Below are positions 33,109 through 38,574 of a stretch of DNA of 64,000 bases, piece after piece (the first letter of the stretch is position 1; every line of letters begins with the position of its first letter). Source of the DNA: Desulfuromonas sp. AOP6 (GTDB taxonomy: Bacteria; Desulfobacterota; Desulfuromonadia; Desulfuromonadales; SZUA-540); assembly GCF_009731355.2 (NCBI RefSeq), contig NZ_AP022810.1, forward strand, positions 3,128,001 to 3,192,000, given 5' to 3'. The notes below the pieces were generated by a model. It saw nothing but the letters and a program-made list of their open reading frames with translations. It ran no database searches and was not told the origin of the DNA. The translations under genes were made by a program, and so were the position numbers.

Positions 33109-33384
33109 TCATTTGATGCGTTTGAGATGACCGCCCTTGTCCCCGTTCTTCTCCTCGCCGGCAGAAGTCTTTTCTTCCTGGGGTTCGCCGTCCTCTTCTT
33201 CTCCCAGGAAGGGGAGGGTCTTTGTCTGAATCATGGTCTCAATGGAGGTGGCAATGGAGAGGCACTGCTTCATGCAGACCCGGCGCGCCGGGCAGGTGGT
33301 GCAATCGGCTTCGCCACCGGCGACCCGCAGGGCATGCACGACCAGTTCAACACTTTCGACCTGAGACAGTGGAATAAAAAACAT
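33109..33384 (-). CDS. Small cysteine-cluster protein
   Basis: This 91-residue cytoplasmic protein begins MFFIPLSQVESVELVVHALR. It carries a four-Cys cluster C28-xx-C31-x5-C37-xxx-C41 (CTTCPARRVCMKQC) and ends in a long Glu/Lys-rich tail. The spacing could bind zinc or an iron-sulfur cluster. No family is recognised. GGGAGAATAAGC precedes the ATG. It sits between aroF and serA on the same strand, 91 bp after aroF, and may be transcribed with aroF. Confidence 0.7.
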   Translation of the reverse strand: MFFIPLSQVESVELVVHALRVAGGEADCTTCPARRVCMKQCLSIATSIETMIQTKTLPFLGEEEDGEPQEEKTSAGEEKNGDKGGHLKRIK

Positions 33385-33475
33385 GCTTATTCTCCCGTGG
33401 AGGAGCAGATTCGGCCGGTGTAACCACACACCGGCTCAATCTGTCTCTTTTTTCGAGGGAACACCCTACACCCTT

Positions 33476-34495
33476 TTACAGGGTTTTGCCAGCGACCGCC
33501 GCGAACTGACGCAACTTCTCCATGACGATGGCAAACTCCTGCGGGCGCAGGGACTGGGGCCCGTCGCTGGCGGCTTTTTCAGGGCAGGGATGCACCTCGA
33601 TGATGAGGCCGTCACAACCGGCGGCGACAGCGGCATAGCTCATGGAGGGGACGAGGCTGGCATGACCGGTGGCGTGTGAGGGATCGATGATTACGGGCAG
33701 GTGCGTCTGCTCCTTGAGAACAGGCACCGCCGAGATATCCAGGGTGTTGCGCGTGGCGGTCTCGAAGGTACGGATCCCCCGTTCGCAGAGAACGACGCGC
33801 CGGTTGCCCTCGGCCAGAATGTACTCGGCGCTCATGAGGAACTCCTGGATGGTGGTGGCCATGCCGCGCTTGAGCAGCACCGGCTTGTCGAGCTGCCCCA
33901 GCATTTTGAGGAGAGCGAAGTTCTGCACGTTGCGGGCTCCCACCTGCAGGATATCGGCATAGCGGGCCACCAGCTCCACATCGCGGGGGTTGACCACCTC
34001 GGTCACGATGGGCAGGCCGGTCTCCTGGCGGGCCAGGTCGAGCAGCTTCAGCCCCTCCTCCTCCATGCCCTGGAAAGAATAGGGACTCGTGCGCGGCTTG
34101 AAGGCACCGCCACGCAGCACCTTGGCGCCGGCCGCCTTGACCGCTTTGGCCGTCTCCACGATCTGCTCTTCACTTTCCACGGAGCAGGGTCCGGCCATGA
34201 CCACCAGGGAAGAACCGCCAATAGTCAACCCCGGCGCCAGCTCGATTTCGCTGGGAGCGGGGCAGACTTCGCGACTGGCCAGCTTGTAGGGCTTCAGAAT
34301 GGGGACTACGCTCTCCACGCCGGGCATCGACTCCAGCGACTGCAATACCATCTTGCCCCTTTCGTCCCCGACAGCGCCAATGACGTTGCGGGTCTCTCCA
34401 TGAATGACGTGGGGCTTGTAACCAAGTTCACGGATCCGTTTTTTGACTTCGGAAAGCTCTTCTTTGCCGACGCCCTGCTTCATGACGATGATCAT
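33476..34495 (-). CDS. aroF: 3-deoxy-7-phosphoheptulonate synthase
   Basis: This 339-residue DAHP synthase of the I-beta type has an N-terminal ACT-like regulatory domain (about 1-70; [17 protein letters not shown]). The barrel shows [48 protein letters not shown] and [10 protein letters not shown]. It joins phosphoenolpyruvate and erythrose 4-phosphate, the first step to aromatic amino acids. CAGGAGGCACAAAG precedes the ATG. It lies behind a leader peptide and two terminators, so expression should follow aromatic amino acid supply. Confidence 0.96.
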
Positions 34496-34535
34496 CTTTG
34501 TGCCTCCTGATATGTGATCGTGCTGCCGTTAACTG

Positions 34536-34569
34536 AAAAAGGCCCCGGAGCGTGTCCCGGAGCCTTTTT
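34536..34569 (-). terminator. Second terminator before aroF
   Basis: AAAAAGGCTCCGGG pairs with CTCCGGGGCCTTTTT (two G-U pairs), giving a stem of about 14 bp with five T on the minus strand. It ends 40 bp before the aroF start, so transcripts must pass it to express aroF. Confidence 0.8.
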
Positions 34570-34585
34570 GATTTCGATCACAAGC

Positions 34586-34628
34586 AAAAAGACCACGGGA
34601 AAACCCTCTGCCGGTCTGCCCATGGTCT
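34586..34628 (-). terminator. Attenuator terminator of aroF
   Basis: AGACCATGGG (34628-34619) pairs with CCCGTGGTCT (34599-34590) and is followed by T's (TTTTTG). Its left arm overlaps the segment at 34611-34625 that can pair instead with the leader-coding sequence 34676-34688, so the two structures exclude each other. Confidence 0.8.
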
Positions 34629-34655
34629 CTGTCGGTTTGTTGTGTGGGGTTCTAC

Positions 34656-34745
34656 TTACGCCAGCAAACCTCTTCCCAGGGCAGACGGTCTAAAATAACC
34701 GTACCAAAAGAAAAAGCGGCTAAACTGGACGAATGAAGCAAACAT
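34656..34745 (-). CDS. aroF leader peptide (aromatic-rich)
   Basis: This 29-residue frame has a strong ribosome site (AGGAG, five bases before the ATG) and contains the run FFFWYGYF. In all, 10 of its first 18 codons encode Phe, Trp or Tyr. The CCGTCTGCCCTGG part (34688-34676) near its end can pair with downstream CCATGGGCAGACCGG (34625-34611), which blocks the terminator at 34586-34628. Ribosome stalling at the aromatic codons would leave that segment free and permit aroF transcription. This is classic attenuation. Confidence 0.85.
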   Translation of the reverse strand: MFASFVQFSRFFFWYGYFRPSALGRGLLA

Positions 34746-34773
34746 GTAGTTCTCCTAGAAATGCGTGATTTCC

Positions 34774-34802
34774 CTTGTAACAGGATTTTGAGCCTATAGC
34801 AA
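34774..34802 (-). promoter_or_regulatory. Candidate promoter of the aroF leader
   Basis: On the minus strand -35 TTGCTA (34802-34797) and -10 TACAAG (34779-34774) are 17 bp apart, just inside the short gap after otsA. Transcription would start near 34767. Confidence 0.45.
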
Positions 34803-34822
34803 GGACTAACTTCTGCTACGTT

Positions 34823-36250
34823 CTACCGGCTGCGCTGCAGCGTTTCAATAAAGCGTCTGACCCAGCGATGGACATCGTTGCGACGGATATCGGCTCGTAA
34901 AACCGACATCCGCCGCTTTCGCTCGTGCTGAGGCATAGTAAAAGCCTGACGAATAGCGTCGGCCGTCCCTTCAATATCGTAAGGATTCACCAAAAGGGCA
35001 TTTTCTCCCATGGTATCGGCGGCGCCAGCGAACTCGCTCAGAATGAGGACACCGTTGTTGTGGACCGAGCTGGCGCAGTACTCTTTGGCTACCAGGTTCA
35101 TGCCATCACATAAGGGCGTCACCAAGGCGATTTCCGCGGCCCGGTAGTGAGCCAGAAGCTGAACCCTGTCGAGACTGCGGTAAACGTAGTGAACAGGAAT
35201 CCAGCCATGTTCGGAATACTGGGCGTTGATCCGGCCCACCAACTGGTCTATCTGCCCCTTCAGATCCCGGTAATCGGGGACCATGGTCCGACTGGGCACC
35301 ACCACCTGAACAAGAGATATCTTTCGCATGAGGTCTGGATATTTCGCCAGGGCCCTCTCGAAAGCCAGCAACCGTTCAGGAATCCCCTTGGTGTAGTCGA
35401 GGCGATCGACCCCCAGCAGCAGTTGCCTCCCTTCAATGTTCTCGTGCAGAAACCAGGCGGCTTCATCGACCTCTTTGGAGGCGGCGGCATCGTTGAATTC
35501 ATCGAAATCGATGCTGATGGGAAAATGTCCCACCCTGACCTTTCTCTGGCCATGCCTCAAGGTGGTATGATGGCGGTGGCGCCGGATCACTTCTGTATCG
35601 GGGAGAAGAGAGTGTGCACAACGAATAAAATTGCGCCGGTCCCGCAGGGTCTGAAATCCCAGCAGATCATACTCCATCAGCCCGCGAATCAGTTCGAGGT
35701 TCCAGGGAAGACGGCGAAAGAGATCGAGAGAAGGAAAGGGGATATGATGAAAGTATCCCAAAGCCTGCCGCACTCCATGCTTCCGCAGATAGGCGCCGAC
35801 CAGGGTCAACTGGTAATCATGTACCCAGAGGAGGTCACCGGCTTTGCAGACCTCGGCAATCGTCCGGGCGAAGCGCTCATTGACCTGGCGATAGGTCTGC
35901 CAGTTTTCCAGGCTGAAATTGCAGTTGCCGAGCAGATCATGGAACAGGGGCCAGAGGGTTTCGTTGGAAAACCCCCAGTAATATCGCTCTACCTCTTCTT
36001 CCGTCAGGGGCACCGGGTGCAGCCGATACCCCTCCTCGGCCCTGAAACGGGAAAGAAGTTCATTCAGCGGGGCCTCTTCGCCGCAGCCAGGCCAGCCAAT
36101 CCACAAGCCATCGTTCTGCTTCATGACTGGCGAGAGAGCCGTCACCAACCCACCCGAGCCGGCGGAAATGTCCCAGCGCCCTTCAACACAGGAGACGACG
36201 ACAGGGAGACGGTTGGAGACCATCAGAAGCCGGTGTGACTGTTGACTCAT
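34823..36250 (-). CDS. otsA: Alpha,alpha-trehalose-phosphate synthase-like GT20
   Basis: This 475-residue GT20 enzyme shows the usual OtsA signature: [61 protein letters not shown] and [10 protein letters not shown]. It should join a nucleotide sugar to glucose 6-phosphate to make trehalose 6-phosphate. A related product such as a glucosylglycerol phosphate is possible. No phosphatase (otsB) domain or gene is present. It follows a TreT-like gene and a DUF5752-type gene on the same strand, with a terminator between. Confidence 0.88.

Positions 36251-38498: not shown

Positions 38499-38574
<76 letters not shown>

Follow-up and report, generated by a model that had tools for sequence, protein, structure and literature searches.

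A putative six-segment relay attenuator with two tandem terminators ahead of aroF in Desulfuromonas sp. AOP6 and its relatives

We analyzed the region ahead of aroF, the gene for 3-deoxy-7-phosphoheptulonate synthase (DAHP synthase), in a stretch of 64,000 nucleotides from the 3.27 Mb genome of Desulfuromonas sp. AOP6 (contig NZ_AP022810.1, positions 3,128,001 to 3,192,000); this whole stretch is called the window and all coordinates refer to it. On the minus strand, a leader reading frame rich in aromatic codons and two terminator-like hairpins are flanked by the end of a trehalose-phosphate synthase-like gene (34823) and the start of aroF (34495). Judged from sequence, this element is very probably a ribosome-mediated transcription attenuator, and its best full explanation, to which we assign a probability of roughly 0.72, is a relay of six RNA segments, numbered 1 to 6 from 5′ to 3′, in which a stalled ribosome would open both terminators. 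Sequence comparison supports the leader, helices 2:3, 3:4 and 5:6, a closing stem at the aroF start site and, less certainly, helix 4:5, while hairpin 1:2, the order of events, the places where the ribosome halts, actual termination and an influence on translation, if there is one, are our inferences.

As long as charged tRNA is plentiful, the ribosome would clear the aromatic codons and helix 1:2 would re-form, so that 3:4 (terminator 1) would halt most transcripts and 5:6 (terminator 2) would catch the leakage; the closing stem around 5:6 would also mask the ribosome-binding site of aroF. When charged Phe-, Tyr- or Trp-tRNA is scarce, the ribosome would stall on the aromatic run ahead of segment 1, segment 2 would pair with segment 3, the freed segment 4 would pair with segment 5, and neither terminator would form. 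The closing stem surrounds hairpin 2 and could hardly coexist with 4:5; it would be hindered in that state, and aroF would be transcribed and translated. The initial annotation of this DNA had proposed a leader, an antiterminator and two terminators; it had not included the helix that links one terminator to the other, the stem closing at the ribosome-binding site of aroF or the larger family of such elements.

The leader lies at 34745-34656 (minus strand), comprises 29 codons and encodes MFASFVQFSRFFFWYGYFRPSALGRGLLA, with the run FFFWYGYF and its own ribosome-binding site AGGAG at 34756-34752, just as first described. The alignment of relatives proposed at that time bears it out, as an aromatic leader is present in 57/57 upstream regions of aroF: in 56 of them at least 5 Phe, Tyr or Trp fall within 9 residues inside 350 nucleotides of the gene, and L115, the exception, carries its leader, with 5 aromatics, at -420. 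These regions come from 56 genomes, an aroF orthologue or relative being present in 57 of the 58 searched, the window's own included; one genome gave no match (G055), one only fragments and a paralogue (G047), and one two copies (G054). In the named collection, most of the closest records bear the titles Desulfuromonadales, Desulfuromonas or Geoalkalibacter. Upstream regions of a paralogue (50-57% identical) in 23 genomes reached 5 aromatics in 9 in 0/23 cases, and 350-nucleotide segments of the window contained at least 7 aromatics in 9 in 1/364 and at least 5 in 3/364. A chance open reading frame is ruled out by the conservation of the leader together with the paralogue control. At the trpE and pheA loci of the same genome, no leader with at least 6 aromatics in 9 was found on the gene's strand, each locus having one short open reading frame with 5. 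A genome-wide search for the aromatic codon pattern gave three matches (this leader, L163 and L164), against five for the reversed control.

For the structural comparisons, 78 distinct leaders in or near the order were reduced to 72 by removing near-identical sequences and two without terminator 1 under the set rule (L013, and L034, whose contig is too short); two more were dropped when the finder chose another hairpin (L049, and L058, which shows no good U-tract), leaving 70. Phe occurs in 70/70 of these leaders, Trp in 69/70 and Tyr in 59/70, and all three together in 58/70, which agrees with the earlier proposal that one leader serves all three aromatic amino acids; all three are found in the last 22 residues in 56/70 and in the stretch directly ahead of segment 2 in 48/70. 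When 42 leaders of the RPSA type are aligned, codons -8 to -5 begin with T in at least 88%, while Phe, Tyr, Trp and sometimes Ser interchange, so the aromatic class is kept more than the residue. This interchange also speaks to a different kind of control, nascent-peptide arrest, in which, as with TnaC, the peptide itself would respond, within the ribosome, to a free amino acid and not to tRNA charging. The nearly constant Trp (69/70) and the well-kept peptide would suit it, but the aromatic residues substitute for each other at several sites, the tail that follows the run varies in step with the RNA pairing, and other groups read this tail in other frames; we regard peptide arrest as very improbable. 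The segment 2 motif GTCTGCC is translated in three frames across groups (PSA, VCP and GLP) and is therefore kept as RNA; some Desulfuromonadales leaders were misframed in this comparison, the motif occurring twice, and the VCP and GLP groups alone were used.

Segment 2 (34691-34675), the antiterminator strand within the leader frame, can form a duplex of -23.0 kcal/mol with the 5′ arm of terminator 1, and terminator 1 itself spans 34629-34589 with a U-tract up to 34586 (segments 3 and 4; -24.9). Both the complementarity and the terminator are thus present as the initial annotation had them, and the compensatory changes it had called for were found in both competing helices. Across the 70 relatives, a leader's own segments form a stronger 2:3 helix than exchanged ones (-23.6 versus -20.2 kcal/mol, 0/2000 permutations), and the effect is retained in 23 divergent representatives (z -6.7, 0/5000). 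The covariation score is 0.267 against 0.175 in shuffles for 2:3 and 0.210 against 0.147 for 3:4, with 0/500 shuffles as good in either case. In an alignment of 67 sequences, 91.0% of cells pair in the 8-pair core of 2:3 (86.7% in shuffles, 0/500; no slid version above 49.8%), and double changes number 26 against 5.1; terminator 1 pairs in 95.5% (92.3%, 0/500), with 28 double changes against 7.6. For 3:4, the count of doubly changed pairs was equalled by 15/500 shuffles and that of pair types by 2/500. Where the leader ends in HRPAAGV or similar and not in RPSA (L042, L044, L117 and L121), the arm GGGTTGAT replaces GGGCAGAC and the match is kept. In simulated nascent folds with a ribosome held at the Trp codon, 2:3 forms in 62/63 cases (arm pairing at least 0.4).

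Hairpin 1:2 is predicted over the aromatic run, between segment 1 (34705-34697) and 34690-34683, with -6.9 kcal/mol in the window and a mean of -8.4 in the 70 relatives. Its 5′ strand contains the usual Gly codon. A ribosome covers about 14 nucleotides ahead of its A site. If stalled on one of the codons directly before the Gly, it would cover segment 1 but not segment 2; the codons concerned in the window would be Phe, Phe, Trp and Tyr.

The second hairpin (34569-34536, -21.1; segments 5 and 6) is also present as first described, and 5:6 is supported by sequence comparison. For this part, 19 of the 70 relatives were put aside by eye, 18 lacking a hairpin 2 of the common type and one (L003) having it behind an unusual terminator 1; in 39 of the remaining 51, at least 4 T occur in the 8 nucleotides after the hairpin. 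Between the 3′ arm of terminator 1 and the 5′ arm of hairpin 2, pairing is stronger for arms from one sequence than for exchanged ones (-17.7 versus -14.9, z -7.7, 0/5000, n=50), and in 10 divergent representatives 2/5000 permutations did as well, with z of -0.7 and -0.4 for non-partner control arms. The window's copy, whose hairpin the motif finder had misplaced, is left out of this test; with it added (n=51), z is -7.6. An earlier definition of the helix gave z -5.0 (controls +1.0, -2.7 and -2.6). In the window, 4:5 has 15 pairs, 34600-34585 with 34570-34555, at -20.5 kcal/mol, much of its length being U-tract against A-tract, and 4/200 shuffles were as good. Nascent folds gave at least 6 pairs of 4:5 in 51/51 relatives. 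The same relation holds outside the order (n=27: -21.2 versus -18.2, z -5.7, 0/5000; controls 0.0 and -2.6), and thinning to 18, 9 and 7 loci left z at -4.9, -3.6 and -3.1 (0, 0 and 2 of 5000), with controls between -0.1 and -2.4. We consider the relay through 4:5 likely in this bacterial group, an estimate that was lowered slightly because of the weak own pairing in the window's copy.

The bases directly after the U-tract of terminator 1 pair with those directly before the ribosome-binding site of aroF (AGGAGG, 34508-34503). This closing stem joins 34582-34575 to 34520-34513 and extends through the U-tract (5′ strand 34590-34575 in all) to part of the binding site (34509-34504; 3′ strand 34520-34504 in all). 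The minimum-energy fold of 34590-34500 contains it, with UUUUUG facing CAGGAG (z -4.7, 0/200 shuffles). Own strands again exceed exchanged ones (-16.9 versus -11.8, 0/2000, n=70), and the core without U-tract and binding site gives z -7.7 (0/5000) in 23 divergent representatives. On a rough alignment of 42 sequences, the covariation score is 0.246 against 0.124 in shuffles (0/500), and 66.3% of cells are paired against 54.1%. In the best duplex, 3 or more of the 7 binding-site nucleotides are paired in 53/70 relatives, with 2/7 in the window's copy. That the stem acts as a clamp on the start site has, in our estimate, even odds. In relatives the pairing is kept through complete sequence change, unlike a sequence-specific site, and this bears on a further explanation, in which a DNA- or RNA-binding protein such as CsrA would mainly control aroF at a GATCGAT pair or at the hairpins and the leader would only modulate. 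In its favor, aroG-2 of Geobacter sulfurreducens was 3.57-fold higher in a csrA deletion by reverse-transcription quantitative PCR, according to the portion of the report available (PMC11934962), but this effect may be indirect, and we judge protein control to be improbable. For a riboswitch or T-box, no Rfam match at curated score was obtained: Rfam 15, run at curated scores on the whole window and 10 loci, returned two tRNAs as its sole matches, and a relaxed search of 34840-34440 gave 7 matches, all far under curated scores.

Several results weigh against the six-segment relay. Four leaders were dropped without a proper terminator 1 (L013, L034, L049 and L058), hairpin 2 of the common type is absent in 18/70, and 12/51 either show less than 4 T behind it or yielded no score. 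For pairs with a double change and for pair types, shuffles were as good in 45/500 and 64/500 for 2:3, 118/500 and 402/500 for 4:5, and 403/500 and 340/500 for the closing stem. On a fixed alignment of 48, 4:5 was matched by 12/500 shuffles in score, 19/500 in cells paired and 2/500 in double changes, and the window's own segment 4 pairs better with segment 5 of 43/50 other species. Shuffled versions of segment 4 still formed at least 7 pairs in 409/510 nascent folds, so the case for 4:5 rests on the own-versus-other tests, whose controls were not always clean (z -2.7, -2.6, -2.6 and -2.4 in different tests). Outside the order, 2:3 weakens to 117/5000 and 235/5000 when thinned to 9 and 7 loci. 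Finally, when the ribosome is placed on the Trp codon, terminator 1 is still dominant in 46/69 full-length equilibrium folds (value for the window's copy, 0.35); the switch would therefore have to be kinetic. Some of these points could be accommodated by a plain four-segment attenuator, in which the leader would govern terminator 1 only, hairpin 2 would be passive or a weak terminator resembling terminator 1 by descent, and the closing stem would only stabilize the mRNA. The 18 relatives that lack the common hairpin 2 and still keep leader and terminator 1, along with the weakness of 4:5 on the fixed alignment and in the window, fit this simpler design, but 4:5 co-varies inside and outside the order, the T-rich tail of hairpin 2 is kept in 39/51, and a strong terminator 2 without regulation would block aroF. 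We consider the four-segment design unlikely and retain the six-segment relay.

The distribution of the element was surveyed with a covariance model of the leader end and terminator 1 (8 pairs, mostly sequence). Its best hit lies ahead of aroF in 30/30 genomes, although the model was built from the tested relatives and matches them by construction; the next hit in the window's genome has an E value of 0.04. In an even draw of the phylum, 58/198 genomes match at E 0.01. Among 30 returned loci, 23 carry this DAHP synthase type with an aromatic leader ahead. The others include a type I-alpha DAHP synthase with the leader FFFWFYF (L190), phenylacetate-CoA ligase (L177 by NCBIfam, L179 by sequence, and a ligase-like stretch at L193) and ADH synthase (L191 and L195). 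An aromatic leader was found in 8 of 11 further, weaker hits, ahead of DAHP synthase (L197), phenylacetate-CoA ligase (L203 and L205, both slightly under the curated cut-off), an ADH synthase-like aldolase recognized by Pfam only (L204) and binding proteins of ABC transporters (Peripla_BP_6). These transporter genes follow either a YYYYGY leader and a terminator (L196 and L198) or a Phe-run leader with one terminator only (L199 and L201), and their leaders may reveal the transported amino acid. Nothing recognizable was seen at L200, L202 and L206, which, like L192 among the first 30 loci, had no match to the four query proteins. As a separate observation, L191, L195 and L204 combine a Tyr- and Phe-rich leader with tandem terminators, ADH synthase being an alternative entry to the shikimate route.

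The leader codons vary with the downstream gene. Outside the order, two tandem terminators occur at 27/33 loci, and at these the start of terminator 2 is often nearly identical to the first arm of terminator 1. Taken together, a phylum-wide relay class seems slightly more probable than its absence: tandem terminators, of which the first supplies with its 3′ arm the antiterminator strand for the second, leader codons matched to the downstream gene and, in Desulfuromonadales, a third gate that acts on translation. DAHP synthase leaders would carry Phe, Tyr and Trp, those of ADH synthase Tyr and Phe, and those of phenylacetate-CoA ligase mostly Phe; leaders of different binding proteins of transporters would have Tyr or Phe runs, in this layout or a simpler one. 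If this holds, leader codons would predict the amino acid served by an unknown transporter or enzyme.

A further 50 more distant loci were compared, 11 of which also belong to the set outside the order; some are from the same phylum, and labels come mostly from metagenome bins. At least 6 aromatics in 9 occur in 22 of them, and an aromatic leader followed by a terminator in 25, two loci with 5 aromatics in 9 (L078 and L110) having been excluded by hand from the terminator test as not leader-like. For 2:3, the values were -19.4 versus -13.9 (z -6.7, 0/5000). The contigs include some labelled Syntrophaceae, Planctomycetes, Nitrospirota (L070, with an unconvincing 2:3), Deferribacteraceae (L074) and Acidobacteria, two acidobacterial loci having a weak 2:3 (L082 -7.1, L095 -6.9). 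Seven contigs (L085, L088, L089, L098, L102, L106 and L107) show an aromatic leader, a terminator and 2:3 complementarity before DAHP synthase; five bear planctomycete genus or family names, one an order-level name and one none. These data suggest that aromatic-leader control of DAHP synthase extends past the few groups for which we found a description, with such leaders ahead of this gene in single contigs labelled Nitrospirota and Deferribacteraceae and in several labelled Planctomycetes.

The gene itself (33476-34495, minus strand, 339 residues) encodes a type I-beta enzyme (NCBIfam NF006421, E 4.8e-153), which is also over the cut-off for TIGR01361. A weak candidate promoter has its -35 (TTGCTA) at 34802-34797 and its -10 (TACAAG) at 34779-34774, 34 nucleotides ahead of the leader start; a scan with self-set weights scored above the region's own shuffles in 53/70 relatives, with the -10 at 30-39 nucleotides in 29/70. 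The predicted fold of 34770-34490 is better than 200/200 shuffles (z -3.1). A strict scan of 34300-35100 listed neither terminators nor promoters (shuffles would give 0.9 and 0.5); the terminators are therefore based on our own looser search and on conservation. Directly downstream of aroF, at 33109-33429, lies a 106-residue open reading frame with several Cys and no NCBIfam match; GSU3141, a hypothetical gene of G. sulfurreducens, is raised along with aroG-2 (GSU3142) in two mutants, as given in the available parts of two reports (PMC11934962, PMC10599522). A tRNA gene is located at 38499-38571 on the plus strand.

We searched the open literature and found no account of this element as an attenuator. 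A comparative study of 2004 reportedly treated attenuation in proteobacteria. In the accessible parts of three surveys, neither aroF nor Geobacter appears in one of premature terminators (PMC2965389), one of Actinobacteria gives no element for Phe or Tyr genes (PMC1262725), and one of Shewanella lists aroF among its predicted elements (PMC2659441). In the genome paper of Geobacter metallireducens, a predicted short RNA element, Gmet_R0069 or GSUR082, has been placed 5′ of aroG-2 and its orthologues in several Geobacteraceae, with no leader peptide, terminator or mechanism in the portion of the source consulted (PMC2700814); judged by position, it is probably this element. For Desulfuromonadales and, probably, Geobacter, the present analysis would offer a concrete, testable switch at the first step into aromatic synthesis, for which that paper gave only an unexplained RNA element.

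Two described leaders stand ahead of DAHP synthase genes. In Acholeplasma, uORFC-13-1 shares with our element a short Phe-coding reading frame and a terminator before aroF; the accessible text describes a U run coding at least one Phe in 24 sequences from one genus and environmental samples, and no relay (PMC8632094). In Corynebacterium glutamicum, aroR likewise places aromatic codons (Phe-Tyr-Phe) before an aroF operon, whose transcription rises on Phe shortage and is unaffected by Tyr; the part of the review consulted describes it without Trp and without a relay, and it belongs to another lineage (PMC11802643). The principle of attenuation was already known, as the initial annotation had said with regard to the trp and phe operons of enteric bacteria; trp, his and C. 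glutamicum aroR are precedents, and the proposed two-terminator relay would be a new version of it. If true, one stalled ribosome would open two terminators, which would make the off state tighter without a second sensor. In the trp and phe attenuators of E. coli, antiterminator and terminator are mutually exclusive, and each attenuator responds to one amino acid through one terminator. The aroF element shares with them (pheA and pheST in the case of phe) a leader peptide with codons for the product, as far as the source goes (PMC11802643), but sits before other genes. The closest parallel in architecture is the his leader of Salmonella (segments A to F), which is also a chain of alternative helices: in the available part of its description, the E:F terminator forms with ample charged tRNA, B:C and D:E form when it is short, and A:B forms when the leader is untranslated (PMC4046918). 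Compared with it, the aroF element has a middle helix (3:4) that is also terminator-like, with stem and U-tract in relatives, would switch two terminators by means of mixed aromatic codons, and adds a closing stem at the ribosome-binding site of the gene.
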